From contig JAPJBO010000016.1 in the NCBI GenBank assembly GCA_030068145.1, forward strand, positions 186,001 through 250,000: 64,000 bases of DNA. Direction: 5' to 3'. The position numbers and the translations under genes were made by a program. This document shows, in pieces, positions 5,877 to 42,600 of the stretch. Position 1 is the first letter of the stretch; each line of letters starts with the position of its first letter. The stretch comes from Diplonema papillatum (taxonomy: Eukaryota > Euglenozoa > Diplonemea > Diplonemida > Diplonemidae). Under the pieces are notes generated by a model. The model made no database searches and was not told the origin of the DNA. It saw only the letters and a program-made list of their open reading frames with translations.

Positions 5877-6201
5877 ATCTACGCATATATGGCGTAGATA
5901 ATGCAGCGAATATCATGAGTAGCTCCCGAAGGGTGCCCCTGTGGTTAATCCGGCACCCAAGGGACGTATTTTAAAGATTTCTTAGCGTATCTTTCCATTA
6001 AAGCAACTGCCGACAAAAAAGAGTGCCTGCCCCCGCTCTTTTTTCACGGCTGGAACTCGAGGTGTCCCCAGAAAATTTCTTGGGCCAGTCACACACGGAT
6101 TTTGAAATATCAGCACCGGTACCAAAAAAACGAGCAGGACAGAACTGCGGACTGAACAAAAGAACTGCAAAAAATGGTCAGGAAAGGCGTGATTGTCAGT
6201 G

Positions 6202-8742
6202 ATGAAGTGTGCGATTCAGAAAGCACATCGTCCGAGACAGAGTCGGACAGCTCGTCGACGGATGCCGAGAAAGTCCCCTTCCCGTGCGCAGAAACCTGAA
6301 AAGCAGACTGGGAAGCCTCAGCAGCCGGTAGATGGGTGGACAGCTGGTATGGGGCCTGTGGATGACTTCCTGAGAAAGCTGCCTGCGGACACCTTTCGCA
6401 CGTGCACCGTCGTTGATTCCCTGGAGCAGTACGACGACCACCGAAGCAGGCGCGAATTCGGGTCCATACCCGGGGTGACACTGAGACTGAGAAACGAGCA
6501 GAAGGGGTGTGAATGCGCCTACATCGCGTTGTGGCGTGCACTTGCATGGCGAACTACCGGAAAGACAGATCTCCCGACTAAGGCTGTCCTCCTCAACTTT
6601 GCAGAAGAGAACTTCCATGAGAAGAAAACGAGCGTGGGGAGCTTGAGGTCGCTGGATTGCTTTGAAGTTCAGCAGTTTTGCCACACGCATGACATTGGAT
6701 TCGTACTCTCGCCGGACTGCATGAAGACAATCCTGTATCGCCGTGTTACAGGAGACACAACGCACAGGGAGGAGTACGAAGCACAGCGTCCCGTGAACAT
6801 TGTTTTCCTCAATAGCCCCCGTGGTAACGACGCCGTCGGTCACTTCGTCAACTTCTTCTTCGAATCCCCCGTGCGTGCGCAGACATCCAGAAAGCCGGCA
6901 GCGAAGCGAGACGGGAAGAAACCACCGCAAAAGAAGCAGACAGACCAGAAGAAGACCACACCACCCAAACCTGCTGCATCAATCAAGTTCCCACTTATGA
7001 AGTGGGCTGACACGGTAGTTCCGATTCCGGAACTTCCATTCGATGAGAAGTTGTCTGGACCACAAACCGACACCTTTGGGGACGTGCTGCATCAGAACTC
7101 TTCTCCGGAGGGGATATTCAGTTTGTTCTTCACTCCAAGTGTCGTGGGCAAAATAATCGGCCAGATGTCCACATACAGCGCTCAGAAGGCGAAGACACGA
7201 GGGCGGGAAGACAAGTTCAAAGCCCCAGATGAAAAGGAACTGAAGCGTTGGTTCGCACTGACCATCGCCATGGGGCTGACTGTGAAGGGGGACCTGTACA
7301 ACTACTGGTGCACGGATCCTGTTGAACACATTCCGTTTTTTGCTTCTGTGATGGGGCGGAACCGGTGGATGGAGATCTACAGGACTCTCCATTTTACTGA
7401 CGACAGCGTTGTCGAAAGCGACCGCCTCAAAAAAATCAAAAACGTTTTCGACATGGTTTCGGAGCAGTGGGCAGAAGTCTGGCGTCCGTCCAAGCAGCTG
7501 AGCTTCGATGAGAGCATTATTCGCTTGAAAGGACGCCTGTCTTTCAAACAGTATGCGCCACAAAAGAGACATCGCTTCGGGATAAAAGCTTTCGTCCTCG
7601 CTGAAGCTGCTACCGGCTACGTGCTTGCTGCCACCATTTACTCCGGGAAGATTGGCGATGGCGTTGGGGGAAACGTAGGCGAGCGTGAGATGCTTCACCT
7701 TGCCAGGAAGTACGCACAGCGTGGGCACTGGCTGTATTTCGACAACTACTATACCAGTGTCCCACTAATGCTTGCTCTATCCAGCATGGGGTTCCATTCG
7801 TGTGGTACAGTACGGTCGAACCGGAAAGGGCTCCCATTACTTCGCGAGAAAAAGGAGAAGAAACGTGGCCGACCAAGTAAGATCGAGAAGGCCAAGGCAC
7901 CGCAGCGTGGGGACTCTTTTTTCATGCAATCCGGACCGGTCACTTACGTGGAGTGGCACGACAAACGGGAGGTCAAAATGTTGTCCACCCTCCCGATCGG
8001 GGCATCCACAACTGAGGTCCAGAGACGACCCAAAGGTTCTTGTGGAAGAAAGGAACCAGTGCAAAAACCCGATATCGTCGAGTCCTACAACGCGTACATG
8101 GGCGGTGTCGACCTCAGCGACCAGCTCATGGCCAGTTGTGGCCGGCTCATGAAGGGTCGGAGGTGGTACCTGAAGCTTTTCTTCTACTTGTTGGAAGTTT
8201 CGTGCCTCAACGCATCTGTTATTTGGAAACATCTCCACAAAGACGATCTGCAGAGCTTTTCCTTCGCTAACTTCAAGCGTGCGCTTATTGCGGGGCTCCT
8301 GAACGCAGATCCTGCCGATGACAGCAGCACAGAACCGGATGAGGTAAGTGCCGGCCCCGAACCCACGACTCCCACCAAATCGCAGCAGGACAGCGCACCG
8401 TCGACCCCATTCTCGCCAAGTACTCCGTCACGTGCTGACGATCATCCGTGCCGGCTTGACGGTAAAACCCACTACCTTGTGCCCCTGGACCGCCGGACGA
8501 CTTGCAAGTGCCACGTGCAGCGCAAGGACGTCCAATACATGTGCAAGCAGTGTGGTGTGCCATTGTGCCCTGCACCCTGCTTTGGGCGGTTTCACACCAA
8601 GCAGGACCACAAATTCGACGACCCGAACTTGAAGGACGCGCAGCGCCGACTCAAGGATCCCAACGGGCGCCCATTCAAGCGCGGGAGGAAGCGCAGTCTC
8701 CAGTCAAACAACAGCCCTGCGCACAACAAGCGCAAGACCTGA
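6202..8742 (+). CDS. piggyBac transposase with N-terminal OTU-like domain
   Basis: DDE-type transposase that would cut and paste the surrounding element at TTAA sites in the nucleus. The first in-frame ATG is at 6202 (846 codons). Counting from it, the core domain spans about 275-670 with FDES (Asp436), FDNYYTS (Asp514) and YNAYMGGVD (Asp637). WHDKREVKML and the RWYLKLFFYLLEV helix, both typical of the family, are also present. A cysteine-rich zinc-binding tail follows (Cys768, 770, 781, 784, 789, 793, His798), as in other piggyBac proteins, then a basic C-terminus. Unusually, residues about 95-225 form an extra domain with GCECAYIALWRAL (Cys103/105) and GHFVNFFF (His214). Its spacing recalls an OTU or papain-like cysteine peptidase. 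An upstream ATG at 6174 opens a different frame encoding an acidic Ser/Glu/Asp-rich stretch that stops at 6299. That stretch resembles a normal piggyBac N-terminus, so a frameshift or an intron near 6280 is possible. Confidence 0.92.
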   Translation: MKCAIQKAHRPRQSRTARRRMPRKSPSRAQKPEKQTGKPQQPVDGWTAGMGPVDDFLRKLPADTFRTCTVVDSLEQYDDHRSRREFGSIPGVTLRLRNEQKGCECAYIALWRALAWRTTGKTDLPTKAVLLNFAEENFHEKKTSVGSLRSLDCFEVQQFCHTHDIGFVLSPDCMKTILYRRVTGDTTHREEYEAQRPVNIVFLNSPRGNDAVGHFVNFFFESPVRAQTSRKPAAKRDGKKPPQKKQTDQKKTTPPKPAASIKFPLMKWADTVVPIPELPFDEKLSGPQTDTFGDVLHQNSSPEGIFSLFFTPSVVGKIIGQMSTYSAQKAKTRGREDKFKAPDEKELKRWFALTIAMGLTVKGDLYNYWCTDPVEHIPFFASVMGRNRWMEIYRTLHFTDDSVVESDRLKKIKNVFDMVSEQWAEVWRPSKQLSFDESIIRLKGRLSFKQYAPQKRHRFGIKAFVLAEAATGYVLAATIYSGKIGDGVGGNVGEREMLHLARKYAQRGHWLYFDNYYTSVPLMLALSSMGFHSCGTVRSNRKGLPLLREKKEKKRGRPSKIEKAKAPQRGDSFFMQSGPVTYVEWHDKREVKMLSTLPIGASTTEVQRRPKGSCGRKEPVQKPDIVESYNAYMGGVDLSDQLMASCGRLMKGRRWYLKLFFYLLEVSCLNASVIWKHLHKDDLQSFSFANFKRALIAGLLNADPADDSSTEPDEVSAGPEPTTPTKSQQDSAPSTPFSPSTPSRADDHPCRLDGKTHYLVPLDRRTTCKCHVQRKDVQYMCKQCGVPLCPAPCFGRFHTKQDHKFDDPNLKDAQRRLKDPNGRPFKRGRKRSLQSNNSPAHNKRKT

Positions 8743-36200: not shown

Positions 36201-36627
36201 TTTTGGTGGTTGATCAGAATCCCTTACCTGGGTAAATACCTTACCTGAATATACACAGGGTAAATACAAGTGGGAAAACAATCAACCGGCACGCACATAG
36301 TGCCGATCTGCCCGAGCTAAATATGGGTAAAGTAGAGACCTTGCTTCGTAACTTCGTTCCATTTGAACACAACTGGCGACCGTTTGGGGAGTCATTTGCG
36401 TGCAAATGAGTACCACGCTATGCCAGCTTTTCGCTACGTGCCTCCAGAAGGGTCACTTTTGCCGCGCTTTTGTCGTAGTGCAACCTTTGTCGGTTGCAAC
36501 TGTTGCTAGGAGTTAGTGACAAGTTCGTAATCAGAGTAGGGCATCGGAATCTTCGCCGTCCCCTCGTGTATTCTAGTGCAGCCACCTGCCGTTTATGAAT
36601 TATGCTGGTGTGTGTTAGAAAAAAGGG
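33201..36627. other. Intergenic repeat region, no supported gene
   Basis: No convincing coding frame. Repeats around CAATGCATTGTT occur near 33.42, 35.77 and 36.17 kb. The block GTTTGTGC(A/G)C....CTAACCTGCTT at 33.35 kb has a relative at 35.70 kb. A segment at 34.19-34.24 kb (TCTTGACAAAACAGAG) is inverted at 41.72-41.77 kb. One MITE lies at 35.47 kb. Confidence 0.5.
35470..35634. mobile_element. MITE of the CACGGT family, complete
   Basis: Ends CACGGTGGAGTTCC and GGACTTCACCGTG lie inside a TA on each side, consistent with TA target duplication. Inner arms GCTGGAGCT and AACTCCAGCTTC flank two copies of a palindromic CACCCGCTTTTCGGGTG-type core. 165 bases, non-coding. Confidence 0.85.
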
Positions 36628-36679
36628 CAAAAATCGCTTATATCCAAAAGTCAAATTTTCGTTTCGCTTATATCCAAGT

Positions 36680-37455
36680 TTGGATATGAGCGAAACGAAA
36701 TTTGGCTTTTTGGATATAAGCGAAACGAAAATTGGCTCATTGGATATGAGCGAAACAAAATTGGCCAATTGGATATAAGCGAAACGAAAATTGGCTTTTT
36801 GGATATAAGCGAAACGAAAATTGGCCATTGGATATAAGCGAAACGAAAATTGGCTTTTTGGATATAAGCGAAACGAAAATTGGCTTTTTGGATATAAGCG
36901 AAACGAAAATTGGCTTTTTGGATATAAGCGAAACGAAAATTGGCTTTTTGGATATAAGCGAAACGAAAATTGGCTTTTTGGATATAAGCGAAACAAAAAT
37001 TGGCTTTTTGGATATAAGCGAAACGAAAATTGGCTTTTTGGATATAAGCGAAACGAAAATTGGCTTTTTGGATAAAGCGAAACGAAAATTGGCTTTTTGG
37101 ATATAAGCGAAACGAAAATTGGCTTTTTGGATATAAGCGAAACGAAATTTGGCTTTTTGGATATAAGCGAAACGAAAATTGGCCATTGGATATAAGCGAA
37201 ACGAAAATTGGCTTTTTGGATATAAGCGAAACGAAAATTGGCTTTTTGGATATGAGCGAAACAAAAATTGGCTTTTTGGATATAAGCGAAACGAAAATTG
37301 GCTTTTTGGATATAAGCGAAACGAAAATTGGCTTTTTTGGATAAGCGAAACGAAAATTGGCTTTTTGGATATAAGCGAAACGAAAATTGGCTTTTTGGAT
37401 ATAAGCGACACGAAATTTGGCTTTTTGGATATAAGCGAAACGAAATTTGGCTCAT
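36680..37455. repeat. Left 30-bp minisatellite array
   Basis: About 26 units of GGATATAAGCGAAACGAAAA plus TTGGCTTTTT. Occasional 28-29-bp units (ATTGGCCATT variants) shift the register. Because 30 is a multiple of three and the unit lacks stops, several frames stay open and encode a meaningless decapeptide repeat such as GYKRNENWLF. Confidence 0.95.
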
Positions 37456-37839
37456 ATGTACAACGACGATTTTGGGGGGGACCCTTTTCGACTTGTTTCC
37501 AGGGACCATGTTGACGATTCAGAGACATTCTGAGCCATCAGAACAAAAGAATTCTAAATCTGAGGCTGCGATGGTCTCCAGAATGAGGTTTCTATTTCTC
37601 AACGCTGCTGGACGCGCACTACCCGTATGCCCCTTTTTTGGGAGGGCAAAGAGGGAAGGGAGGGGCAATATTGCATCATCCTGCGTACACAGTCATCTGC
37701 ACTACGACCGACGGAATTCGCTCTCAAAGTACGGAGTCAAGTCTCGTCTGTATACGCGATGCGGTTTACCGAAGCCATCGAGCGCCACGGCCAGGGATGG
37801 ATACGTTTACTCGCTGATCGATGCTACGGCAGTACGGCA

Positions 37840-37970
37840 AACCCACTATGCAGCCTGAGTTCAGCCCCGCGCACCTAGCGCTCACAAGGCAACCCATGAT
37901 CACTTCGGTGTGAGGGATCAGTCCTGACCGAGCCTAATGCCTGCCGGGCGCCTGCTCCGTTGCGGTGTTT
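37840..37970. repeat. 131-bp direct repeat in foldback core, copy 1
   Basis: Nearly identical to 38111-38242, with about 140 bases between them. It runs from AACCCACTATGCAGCCTGAG to GCTCCGTTGCGGTGTTT. Confidence 0.95.
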
Positions 37971-38110
37971 CTTGCTGACCAATGCGTTCCACGTCTGAAG
38001 GGACCTTGCGTTAAGTTCGCGCCTTCTGTGGGTATACAGACTTGATCACGACTTTTGGAAACGAAGCTTACTCTTGAGATCCGGTGTGGAGGGCCATTGT
38101 TACCTGACAA

Positions 38111-38242
38111 AACCCACTCATGCAGCCTGAGTTCAGCCCCGCGCATCTAGCGCTCACAAGGCAACCCGTGATCACTTCGGTGTGAAGGATCAGTCCTGAC
38201 CGAGCCTAATGCCTGCCGGGCGCCTGCTCCGTTGCGGTGTTT
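38111..38242. repeat. 131-bp direct repeat in foldback core, copy 2
   Basis: Second copy of 37840-37970 with a handful of substitutions, in the same orientation. Confidence 0.95.
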
Positions 38243-38830
38243 TGAAAACCAGGTAACTTTGTGCTCAGTGGTCGTACGAATCATGTTCTACCTCCTGTGA
38301 TTCGTGATGGTTGTATGTTCTACCTCCTGTGATTCGTGATTGTCCTGATACGTGAATGTATGCGAAACAAAAATTGCGTTGCAAATTTCGGCGACATGTG
38401 ATTGGACAATGGTAAAGGGAATAGCTACTGTAGCTACTACTGGGAGTTCAAGCGGACGAGTCACACAGGTATCCCATGGTGGGGCCCAAGGGTACCTGTA
38501 TATCGAGGGTGGGGCCCGCGACCCGGGCCCCGGATTAGCACTAATAGTAGGCCCAGGTACTGCCGTCGTACTTGCTTGGAGGAAACAGAGAGGGCAGAAC
38601 CTGGTTGGTAGCACTGTGCTGCCCCAAACCCGTCGGGTTGCTCGTTTGGCGAACCACTGTCCCTCTCGCAGATGACAGCAAATCCAGTGTTAGGCACCCA
38701 CAAAATCCACCCAAATTCAGGGTTAGTGTATTGGCTGCAAATGTCCCCCCAAAAAGGGGGAAAACGCCATCCAGGGTCACAAGGCCTGGACAGTCAATTT
38801 CGCTGAGCTGTTGAGTGACCCTTTCACACT

Positions 38831-39233
38831 AAGCCAAATTTCCGTTTCGCTTATATCCAAAAAGCCAAATTTCGTGTCGCTTATATCCAAAACAAATTTT
38901 TGTTTCGCCTATATTCAAAAAGCCAAATTTCCGTTTCGCTTATATCCAAAAAGCCAAATTTCGTTTCGCTTATATCCAAAACAAAATTTTGTTTCACTTA
39001 TATCCAATGAGTCAAATTTCGTTTCGCTTATATCCAAAAAAGCCAATTTTCGTTTCGCTTATATCCAAAGCAAAATTTTGTTTCGCCTATATCCAAAAGT
39101 CAAATTTGCGTTTCGCTTATATCCAGGTTTGGATATAAGCGAAACGAAATTTGACTTTTTGGATATAAGCGAAACGGAAATTTGGCTTTTCGGATATAAG
39201 CGAAACGAAAATTTGACTTTTGGATATAAGCGA
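38831..39233. repeat. Right 30-bp minisatellite array with hinge
   Basis: About ten units of the same repeat in reverse orientation (TTTCGTTTCGCTTATATCC), more diverged than the left array. Then come a hinge at about 39125 and three units in forward orientation ending at the element tip. Confidence 0.9.
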
Positions 39234-39427
39234 ATTTTTCCCCATAAAAAAACGACGAAAGAGAACACAAAACAAAACGGGCTCGCAAAGGGAGGGTGCT
39301 GCGAGCCTCCCGCACGACGCACTTTCACAGGATGAACTAGACTATCACAAGTCCGGGAGGTGATTGCAAGAACGTGCTTGCAAGGGATATGTGCTCAACA
39401 CCGCACTGGTCCCGTCTGCGCGACACA

Positions 39428-39563
39428 TACACGGTAAGGTCCTGCCTCAGAAGCTGGAGTTACAGAGGGTGTGCCCGAGTCACACCCGAAAAGCGGGTGT
39501 GACACCCGCTTTTTTAACTCCAGCTTTAACTCCGCAGCTTCCGAGGCTCGACTTCACCGTGTA
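39428..39563. mobile_element. MITE of the CACGGT family, complete
   Basis: CACGGTAAGGTCCTGCC with CAGAAGCTGGAG at the left, and CTTCCGAGGCTCGACTTCACCGTG at the right as its inverse, flanked by TA on both sides. It sits inside another repeat. The surrounding sequence (TTGCAAGAACGTGCTT to CTGGTCCCGTCTGCG, then GCGGACCATCATC) also occurs without this MITE in kinesin intron 1 at about 27793-27895. Confidence 0.85.
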
Positions 39564-39608
39564 CGGCGGACCATCATCACCGGGTGGGGGGGGTTTGTTT
39601 TAGAGGGT

Positions 39609-42600
39609 TCAAAGCTTTTTCTGCTCGTAAATCCGGGCCACGGCGTCCTCGACGATGCCGCGGACCGTTTCGCGGTCGCAGGTCGGCGGGAACGACAGCC
39701 GCGTGAGAGGGACGCCGTCGACCTGCTGTTTCGCTTTGTCTTCTTTGACGATGGCGCCCTGGGTGGAGGTGGCCGGAACCGTCGCGTAGATCAAACCGTT
39801 GTCCTGGCCGAAGCTGACGCACGGCTTGAAGCACTCCGCGTGCGCAGTGAGCAGCGTGACGAAAGCCTGCGCCAACCCGGCACTTTGCTCGGCGGTCGCG
39901 CCGGCGGGCGGCGGGAGGTTGAAGGAGAACGTGCTCGTGTAGTACCCTGCAGACGCCTCCTCCGGGGTCACGAACTCCAGCGGCATGTCGCGGGCAGTGC
40001 TGCGCTTCACCGCCGCCTGCAGCACGCCGCCGAGGAACACCGCGGTGTCGTACGCCGCTTTGCAGCGCCCGACGACGTTTTTGTGGTTGTCGACCAACCG
40101 CCGCAGCTGGTCTGGCTTGCCGCAGGTGTCGAACGTCCGCGCGACGCCCCGAACCGCGGCCAGCACCTCGCCCGCCAGCGCCGTGTGGTTGCTGACGATG
40201 CACCCGGCGCAAGTCATCCCCCGCGAGACCGACTTCGAGAGGCTCGTGAACGTGAGCGCCGGGATCTCGTCGTCGTGCGCCCTGATCTTCTCGAGAAGCG
40301 CCGATCCGGGCGCGAACGTCACGTCTCCGACGAGGTATACCTGCTTGCCCGTGGCCTTCTGGTACGCACGCACGCTTTTCGTCAGCTGCGCGAGGCAAGG
40401 AATCTTCATGTCTGGGTTCGTCGGAATTTCGAAGAACACGACGGTGGCCGCGGGCCCCGAAGCAAACGCGGCGGTCTCGCCCCGCGCCCACGCGGCGGCC
40501 ATCGCGGCGAGGGTCTCCTCGATGCACGCCGAGACGTCCGGGCGGCCTTGGATGTGGAACGTGTGCTTCCGGAAGCCGGCCGCTTTGGCCTCGAAAATGT
40601 CGGTCAGCTGGCTGGAGCCGCCGTAGGCGGTCGAGCACATGACCAGGTCGACGCCGCCGGCGCACCGGATGAAGGCCGCGTACAGGGCGGCGATCGTCGG
40701 CAGCCCGGCCGTGAAGATCGCGGGCTCCTTCCCGGCCTGCAGCGGGGATCCCGACAGGTCGCACAGCGACGCGTGCAGCTCCTGCAGCTCGGCTTTGGAT
40801 GGGGCCTCCGATTCGGATGGCGCAGGGACCGAACCTGAAGGTGCGTTTTGTTCGTGCGCGCGTGAAAACATGTTTAGTGGTGTGTTTTGTGGAATCATGT
40901 CTTTTGGTGCTGTTGACCATGTCCACAGGCCCCGGATGATGCAGTCGTCTCTTTTTGAAGGAAGGGTTGACCCTTGAAACGCTTCACGCGGGGACAGGGT
41001 TAATTATCCTGGAAAGCTGCACTTTTTTCGTGTAGTAGGGTGTCTTGTGGATGTGCATGGAAAAACAGGGGAGATCTCATTCTCTTGCATCGGGCCGTAC
41101 CGTTAACCGCAATAGGTCTCCTCGGCAAAATGCCTCTGGCCGACAGAACAATGTAGGTAAGGGAAGTCGGCAAACTGGATCCGCGTTTTGAAGCTGCACG
41201 TGGAAACATGTCTACGGTGCGATCGTTTGTGCGTGTGGAAACATGTCTACGGGTGCGGTTGTTTTGCGTGTGGAAACATGTTTCTTGGTGTGTTTTGTGT
41301 GTGTGGAACACGTTGGCTGGCGCGTCTTGTCCGTGCGTCTAAACAAGAATTGAAACAAGTTTACCTGTGCGTGTAGAAATATGTTTACTGGCGCGGTCAA
41401 GGTAATACCAATCACCGCATTGTCGCTGATTAAGAGGACAATGAGCGAAACCAACACCACCCTTTTCGTCGTTACCAACGGATCTGCTTAAGCTGCTTGG
41501 AAAAAGGCTGCGTGTGTATCCCACTCAACAAAGAAATGTGAAAAACGGGGGTTGTAATTTTATTTTTGAAAGTATGCCAATACTGCAGGGAATAGTTGAC
41601 TAGACCTCTTGAGTTTGTGCTGACCACGAATAGGGGAGTCGGGAGAACCTACAAAGCCAAAAGCAGGACCGACCCCCCCGTTCGTGAGAAAAAGCGAAGA
41701 ATAAAAACACCTTTTTTTTCCATCTATCTTTGTCAAGAGCTGCAACTCAACTATTCCCCTTCTCTGGGGAAGAGCTGCCGCGCCAAACCTCGCTTCTTTG
41801 TACCACATGCGGAGAAAGGAGAAACAGAGACATAAATAGAGACAGAGAGGGTTTGGAGGAGGACGCTGGCGTGCGTCGGGGCCAGTGAGAAACCGGCCAC
41901 CTTGCTAGATAAATGCTGCCGCGGAAAATGTGATTCGTTTGCGACAATAAAACCTGAGGGAAAAAGACTGCGTGGTTATCCCTCTCAAAAAAAAAAAAAA
42001 AGAGGGGGGGGAGGAAAGAAAGAAACACCTAGTTTTCGGAGAACGTCGAGGCAGACTGGAGTGGTTAATGGGGTCGCCATCCGCTTGCGGAGCGTCAGGA
42101 CGGCTGCGGGGTCGACTTTGGCGGTGTCGCGAATGTAGAGCACCCAGTCCTCTGCCCACGCGTCTACGTGCGGCGCGTGGCTGGCGTCGGTGGACAGCAC
42201 GACGCAGCCCGCCGGCTCGCGCGGGCAATCCCGCGGGTGCCTCTCGTCGCAGCGGATCTCCGCGCTGAACACGTGCTTGAGCAGCGCGATGTCGTCATCG
42301 GACAAGAGGGAAGGCGAGCCATGCAGACACACGGGGTGCTCGGCGGCCAGGAGCGTCGCAATCACCGGCATCTTGAGGGAAGCGAAGGACAGGACCTGGC
42401 GTACAGGAAGCCCGTGCAGGCTGCCGAGGAAATACTCGAGCACCGTCGACACGTTGGAGCTGACCCTGAGGTAGTCCTCGGCGTTGCCGAGGGCCTCAAG
42501 GTCCGCGGTTGTCAAAGGGGAGCCCGCCTTCTCGGACAGCAGGCGCTGCAAATTCTCGCCGAACCGCTCTCTGCCCAGCAGGCAGTGGTTCTTGAACGTC

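Follow-up and report, generated by a model that had tools for sequence, protein, structure and literature searches.

A probable non-autonomous Mutator-type foldback element with hinged tandem-array ends in the genome of the diplonemid Diplonema papillatum

Foldback transposons such as Drosophila FB/NOF and Arabidopsis FARE possess long inverted ends composed of short tandem repeats, generate a 9-bp target duplication and have a partner of the MULE type. To our knowledge, these are built from other repeat units than the element described here and have no double flip of array orientation. Several described systems share further features with it. Tm1, a Mutator/Foldback element of root-knot nematodes, is reported to have inverted ends of composite structure whose tandem repeats vary in number, and mostly 9-bp duplications; its members include both MITE-like and transposase-bearing forms, the transposase resembling the Phantom subclass of Mutator (PMC3169594). 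Muta1 and other MULEs of Aedes aegypti are likewise described with 8-9 bp duplications, subterminal tandem repeats and non-autonomous copies that vary in repeat number and carry foreign interiors, Muta1 being termed a type 2 foldback element (PMC5225508). Plant MULEs with multiple terminal inverted repeats are similar in that they carry extra internal end sequences without a duplication at those sequences (PMC3310237). For the diplonemids themselves, the paper on the D. papillatum genome touches briefly on MULE ORFs and leaves rigorous transposon identification still to come; its main text has two occurrences of "MULE" and none of "foldback," "inverted" or "palindrom" (PMC10161547). The words "Euglenozoa," "kinetoplastid" and "trypanosom" are absent from the accessible part of a broad MULE survey. 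Diplonemid transposons are hardly described, and the family presented here (family A) now stands beside a transposase-bearing MULE with the same flipped-array ends.

The element lies in a 64,000-nucleotide stretch of contig JAPJBO010000016.1 from the marine flagellate D. papillatum, hereafter the window, in which positions 36300-39600 were covered by direct examination and a repeat scan. It occupies 36625-39242 (2,618 bp) and comprises inverted tips, hinge palindromes, inverted 30-bp arrays and a 1.38-kb core; these limits were set from other copies and depart by at most 3 bases from those of an earlier sequence-only reading (36628..39240). If units oriented like the 5' tip are written "<" and those oriented like the 3' tip ">", the order from 5' to 3' is the tip and two "<" units, a hinge, 26 ">" units and the core, followed by ~10 "<" units, a second hinge and 3-4 ">" units that include the 3' tip. 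The individual features are as follows.

36616..36624, no strand: left flank 9-mer TAGAAAAAA, presumed target duplication (degenerate), 7/9 against the right flank 9-mer
36625..36645, plus strand: 5' tip GGGCAAAAATCGCTTATATCC, 1 mismatch from the family tip pattern GGGNAAAATTCGCTTATATCC
36667..36690, no strand: 5' hinge ATCCAAGTTTGGAT / CTTATATCCAAGTTTGGATATGAG, head-to-head junction of two units, 42 bp from the tip when counted between first bases
36679..37452, no strand: inner array on the 5' side, 26 copies of the 30-bp unit running counter to the 5' tip (TRF, unit map)
37453..38830, no strand: core (from repeat boundaries and ORFs)
37634..38305, plus strand: core segment common to foldback family B, ~96% DNA identity
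37848..37970 and 38120-38242, plus strand: copies 1 and 2 of a 123-bp duplication in the core, 98%
38283..38343, plus strand: 29-bp direct repeat pair in the core
38831..39125, no strand: 3' inner array, ~10 units (TRF 9.9 copies), orientation opposite to the 3' tip (TRF, unit map)
39116..39139, no strand: 3' hinge ATCCAGGTTTGGAT / CTTATATCCAGGTTTGGATATAAG, head-to-head unit junction, 103 bp inside the 3' tip
39128..39234, no strand: 3' outer array, 3-4 units (TRF 3.5 copies), tip orientation (TRF)
39222..39242, minus strand: 3' tip GGGAAAAATTCGCTTATATCC (minus-strand reading), exact match to the family tip pattern
39243..39251, no strand: right flank 9-mer CATAAAAAA, presumed target duplication (degenerate)

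The sequence-only reading had described a foldback element whose inverted ends consist of a 30-bp tandem repeat, with a hinge palindrome in each end, symmetric about a unique core of 1.37 kb. TRF arrays in opposite orientations bear out the inverted ends, both hinges are present (36667-36690 and 39116-39139), and the observation is real and far beyond chance. The inner arrays are unequal, however, with 26 units on the 5' side and ~10 on the 3' side. Nor is the core unique: it has 672 bp in common with another transposon family (B) and contains the internal duplications of 123 and 29 bp. In addition, 71 bp of the core (38751-38821) have dispersed recurrences in the genome at 94%, and its 486-bp right part is 100% identical across four copies, the window copy among them. 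A retrotransposon origin of this right part was considered, as the core of one copy (L025) enters a longer ORF with the look, by eye, of an RNase H end, and was rejected after Pfam returned no match and a PDB sequence search only chance-level ones. Folded as single strands, the two ends of the element score z -10.4 and -5.5, with 0/200 shuffles as good for each. None of the nine core ORFs of at least 60 aa that are not mostly array has a Pfam match at E 0.1, and the ORFs of at least 180 aa that overlap the element cross its arrays of 30-bp units; we treat the element as non-coding. Elsewhere in the window, an open 849-aa ORF at 6193-8742 carries a DDE_Tnp_1_7 domain (6.7e-73) and is presumably of piggyBac type. 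A 185-bp piece of 28S rRNA (Rfam RF02543) lies at 40891-41075, and scattered 28S rRNA pieces are reported in the text of the genome paper (PMC10161547).

In the genome to which the window belongs (271 Mb, 2910 contigs), the diplonemid spliced-leader motif has 604 exact occurrences and its reversed form 0. A search of this genome for the element returned 136 matching stretches with 40 of 1315 candidates scored, so that match counts for family A are lower bounds. Twenty loci (L009-L028, L028 being the window copy) hold large or partial A elements, which supplies the further copies that the sequence-only reading had proposed looking for; another 20 (L029-L048) share a core segment only and constitute family B. 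The tip pattern occurs 82 times at up to one mismatch and 133 times at up to two, the two-mismatch rows including tips of a third family, C; as a control, the reversed pattern has 0 matches genome-wide, even at two mismatches. The paired A tips are terminal inverted repeats, as in Mutator elements. The hinge pattern has 61 matches genome-wide at up to one mismatch, some of them counted on both strands because hinges are palindromes, and its reversed form has 0. In the unit map, the 5' tip is kept in 13 of the 18 loci with a 5' array, and all 13 also have the hinge; in L018 tip and hinge are both present and separated from the array by an insert, L026 has a hinge without a tip, and the outer portion of the 5' end is missing from L017, L021 and L022. 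The 3' hinge is reached in 14 of the 17 loci with a 3' array, while L012, L022 and L027 stop short of it. Array length varies between copies, with the order of unit variants largely kept. The CGCTTATATCC half is the best-conserved part of the 30-bp unit, by a measure that is biased because units were located through that half. Long inverted ends of short tandem repeats that vary in length among copies, in a family that is multicopy and mobile, are what is expected of a foldback element. The structure could conceivably be a local minisatellite, or an assembly artefact of a hairpin-forming region, given that tandem and inverted repeats are error-prone in assembly and single array lengths may be inexact. 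For the element as a whole this is refuted, and its probability is practically negligible: tips, hinges and core order recur at many loci on different contigs, accompanied by 9-bp duplications and empty sites, and the structure is thus not confined to one locus.

The spacing between tip and hinge is discrete. Distances were measured for 27 exact hinges and 15 of the AGG type, 19 further rows being omitted. Among the 27 exact 5' hinges, 20 lie at exactly 42 bp from the tip, three at 43, 49 and 68 bp, and four are without a tip; among the 15 AGG-type 3' hinges, eight lie at 103 bp, three at 71-72 bp and one at 42 bp, and three are without a tip. The 3' hinge distances step by approximately one unit.

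Evidence for mobility comes from the flanks. At the 14 of 25 loci where both A tips were found (nine large, five short copies), flanking 9-mers are 86% identical vs. a shuffle mean of 44% and maximum of 67%, and 6 of the 14 pairs are exact vs. a mean of 0.57 and maximum of 5; 13 of the 14 are true tip pairs, and L022 (1/9), in which an A-like tip is paired with a family C tip, is retained in these figures. The corresponding values for family B (12 of 20 loci) are 94% identity vs. a shuffle mean of 44% and maximum of 75%, and 8/12 exact pairs vs. a mean of 0.64 and maximum of 5. Exact flank matches of length 5-8, 10 or 11 were found in neither A nor B, although A/T runs also raise flank identity at lengths other than 9. 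Both families therefore have the 8-10 bp, typically 9-bp, target duplication of Mutator elements. The duplication of the window copy itself is degenerate (7/9) and lies in an A-rich context, and across the family A duplicates 9 bp of AT-rich target upon insertion. Empty sites complement this picture. When the flanks of L024 are joined with a single copy of the 9-mer, all 220 bases align at 99% to C192 and C102, with length unchanged; six places are covered over at least 218 bases. With 40 of 1948 candidates scored, the search listed 62 rows, of which 42 span the junction (base 110). Matches of the C192 and C102 type are empty sites for this one copy. Further copies, 9-bp duplications and empty sites together support the earlier suggestion of a non-autonomous foldback family. 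We also observed that three A copies (L018 1625, L024 2409 and L025 2441) sit at nearly one AT-rich spot (TTTACAATTAATTGTT) of a dispersed repeat, two of them at the identical base, and that the 3' flank of the A copy in L014, from 4265, starts ATAAGAGAAACTCTCTGGGGATATAAGAGAAAAG, perhaps the edge of another related array family.

The hinged tandem-array ends of A are matched in layout by family C, a transposase-bearing MULE family of the same genome. C tips (GGTAAATTTCCCTTATATCC) have 340 matches at up to one mismatch, counted for the tip with its leading G, and 0 when reversed. A genome search with the Pfam MULE model (PF10551) gave 150 matches (150 of 245 candidates scored). Of its loci at 53.3 bits (n=22), at least 17 are preceded on their own strand by a C 5' end, which the search placed ~2 to 6 kb upstream for 16 of them and which the tip list and end sequence show for the other, C110; the remaining C90, C252, C971, C1733 and C2751 cannot be said to lack a C end, because that search scored 40 of 1032 candidates. 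All 40 C ends also match the query on the opposite strand inside the end, i.e., they carry the hinge palindrome, and 24 of the 40, which have no MULE hit of the 53.3-bit class alongside, may be non-autonomous or cut. Three C 5' ends (L054-L056) and the 3' end of one autonomous element were examined in sequence. That element, at C687 4324-9245, was examined at both ends and in its gene and has a hinge at each end: four "<" units, hinge CCCAGATTGGGA and two ">" units at the 5' end, and one "<" unit, hinge CCCAGTTTGGGA and three ">" units at the 3' end. Its two flanks carry AAATAAATG, a perfect 9-bp duplication. Its ORF encodes 986 aa from the first Met and matches MULE at 48.6 bits (cut-off 27.6) and Transposase_mut at 32.7 bits (cut-off 21), while its zinc knuckle and OTU matches fall under the Pfam cut-offs. 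The OTU-like C-terminal part (L058/L057, C687 5681-8638; VPGDGDCFYSCL) scores 14.0 vs. a cut-off of 23.3 bits; an ovarian-tumour gene is noted for a cnidarian MULE in the accessible part of the broad MULE survey. By eye, tRNA-like stretches lie just inside both C MULE ends (L054 ~225-290 and L057 ~1265-1300); at the 5' end the minus strand shows a T-arm of the GGTTCGAATCCC type, and the 3' end shows GGGTTCAATTCCC. From ~1471 of L057, an array element beginning GGGTAAAGTCCCTTGTATGGACACCTGACTTTGAAAAAGTCCC adjoins the C copy and is perhaps a family D with a unit of ~31 bp.

Taken together, these results make the element probably a foldback member of the Mutator (MULE) superfamily that lacks a transposase and is non-autonomous. 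Galileo, a foldback element of the P superfamily, has similar long, internally repetitive inverted ends, which raises that superfamily as an alternative. However, the target duplication of the P superfamily is shorter, at 7-8 bp, against 9 bp here, and a MULE transposase is what the C element, whose ends match, encodes; membership in the P superfamily is accordingly very improbable. The Galileo THAP domain is nevertheless described as having multiple binding sites in the long ends of that element (PMC3688188).

Family B bears on both the core and the hinge. Its unit is AATTCCCTTCGAGCCAGCAAAAACAAATTT, its tips (GAGCAATTTACCTTATAGCC) have 114 matches genome-wide at up to one mismatch and 0 when reversed, and its layout is plain, without hinges, in the copies examined (L030 and L038). 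Divergence of the shared core segment, over the 11 A and 18 B loci that cover it (the other 11 of 40 loci being dropped), is 0.1% within B, 1.0% within A and 2.8% between A and B; B would thus be a very recent burst, because its segment copies differ by 0.1%. For 100 of the 114 B tips, none of the listed MULE hits lies close, the nearest on the same strand being ~7 kb away (C138). A candidate autonomous B element at C2216 was rejected, as its MULE hit (48.4 bits) lies ~1.25 kb past the 3' end of the B copy L048 and thus outside B.

The relationship between these families can be approached through their tips and units. C tips differ from A tips; the alignment between the two is surpassed by none of 2000 shuffles. 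With verbatim units, the number of shuffles as good out of 1000 is 2 and 9 for A-C, 3 and 6 for B-C and 12 to 36 for A-B, a weaker outcome than that of an earlier test with partly composed A and B strings (1-2/1000 for the three main pairs, and 31 and 9 for the commoner B unit). Common descent of the A, B and C units is likely on these comparisons, with an A-C unit similarity that appears modest. The MULE gene lies between C ends, and A is linked to C by layout, tips and this modest unit similarity; no A tip (at up to one mismatch) has any of the 150 listed MULE hits close by, the nearest on a shared contig being ~100 kb away (C204). The enzyme that moves A is accordingly an inferred one: the MULE transposase of C or of a relative would bind the repeated CGCTTATATCC half of each 30-bp unit and cut at the outermost tips, moving A in trans. 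Recombination or slippage among the units may lengthen or shorten the arrays, and the core could be filled when repair switches to a foreign template, here partly with the sequence common to B.

Five short A copies (L049-L053; 78, 133, 108, 169 and 318 bp) extend this scheme. All are tip-hinge-tip palindromes with at least one unit after the hinge, and the hinge is of the 5' type, or a slight variant, in 5/5. Four of the five have 9-bp duplications with 8 or 9 matches; L049 scores 6/9 as framed and 9/10 with its end shifted. The 108-bp copy, L051, folds at z -13.8 (0/200 shuffles as good). Being short and non-coding, with paired tips and a target duplication, these copies are MITEs, the window element being larger. 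As the 5' inner and 3' outer arrays share orientation, one recombination between them, deleting what lies between, would give the short one-hinge palindromic form. The reverse derivation deserves mention: two one-hinge MITEs may have flanked a core, lost their inner tips and become mobile from the outer ones. Each end of the long element does resemble a MITE (tip, hinge and array) without its inner tip, and free one-hinge MITEs of 78-318 bp exist, all five with the 5'-type hinge or a slight variant. The array-core junctions, however, fall within a unit, with no inner tip or target duplication seen there, and the MITEs also fit as deletion products, 310 of the 318 bp of L053 aligning at 94% to the 5' end of a long copy. 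Furthermore, C has the same layout around its transposase, so that the double hinge probably predates the A core. Such a composite origin is therefore unlikely, and we retain the reading of a non-autonomous Mutator foldback element from which MITEs may arise by deletion.

Whether the hinge is itself a working part of the transposon end is a more tentative matter. It is possible, if doubtful, that head-to-head binding sites, or an end prone to form a hairpin, are required by a Mutator-type transposase or assist it. A diplonemid MULE lineage would then have kept this feature in its autonomous and non-autonomous families alike, at distances from the tip that change by one unit at a time. Family B is mobile yet hingeless, and a hinge is accordingly unnecessary for mobility in general. 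Should the hinge be functional, the double flip would also let elements collapse readily into MITEs. The hinged layout provides a simple way in which long foldback elements could become MITEs, and the quantised spacing of tip and hinge poses a testable question of how MULE transposases read repetitive ends.

The sequence-only reading had further suggested an undescribed family, which stands insofar as none like it was found in the literature surveyed, although Mutator/foldback elements as such are already known. A head-to-head array flip in MULE ends was not found in the accessible texts of that literature, which includes Tetris and Abermu and covers subscription journals thinly; no report was found of the conserved double-flip design, which appears new within these bounds. 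The plant MULEs with multiple terminal inverted repeats differ in that, as reported, 48/61 of those in tomato have the extra ends in tandem at both ends, with similarity over at least 100 bp; they are mostly non-autonomous, and the accessible text describes no flipped 30-bp array (PMC3310237). Muta1 departs from A in having a 10-bp tip, an imperfect palindrome, followed by subterminal repeats of 12 bp, with no head-to-head array hinge in its accessible description (PMC5225508), and Tm1 in its 13-15 bp unit, in 7-bp terminal motifs that lie outside the inverted repeat, and in a description that, in its accessible part, includes no orientation flip (PMC3169594). Tm1 and Muta1 are nonetheless the closest known systems that we found.
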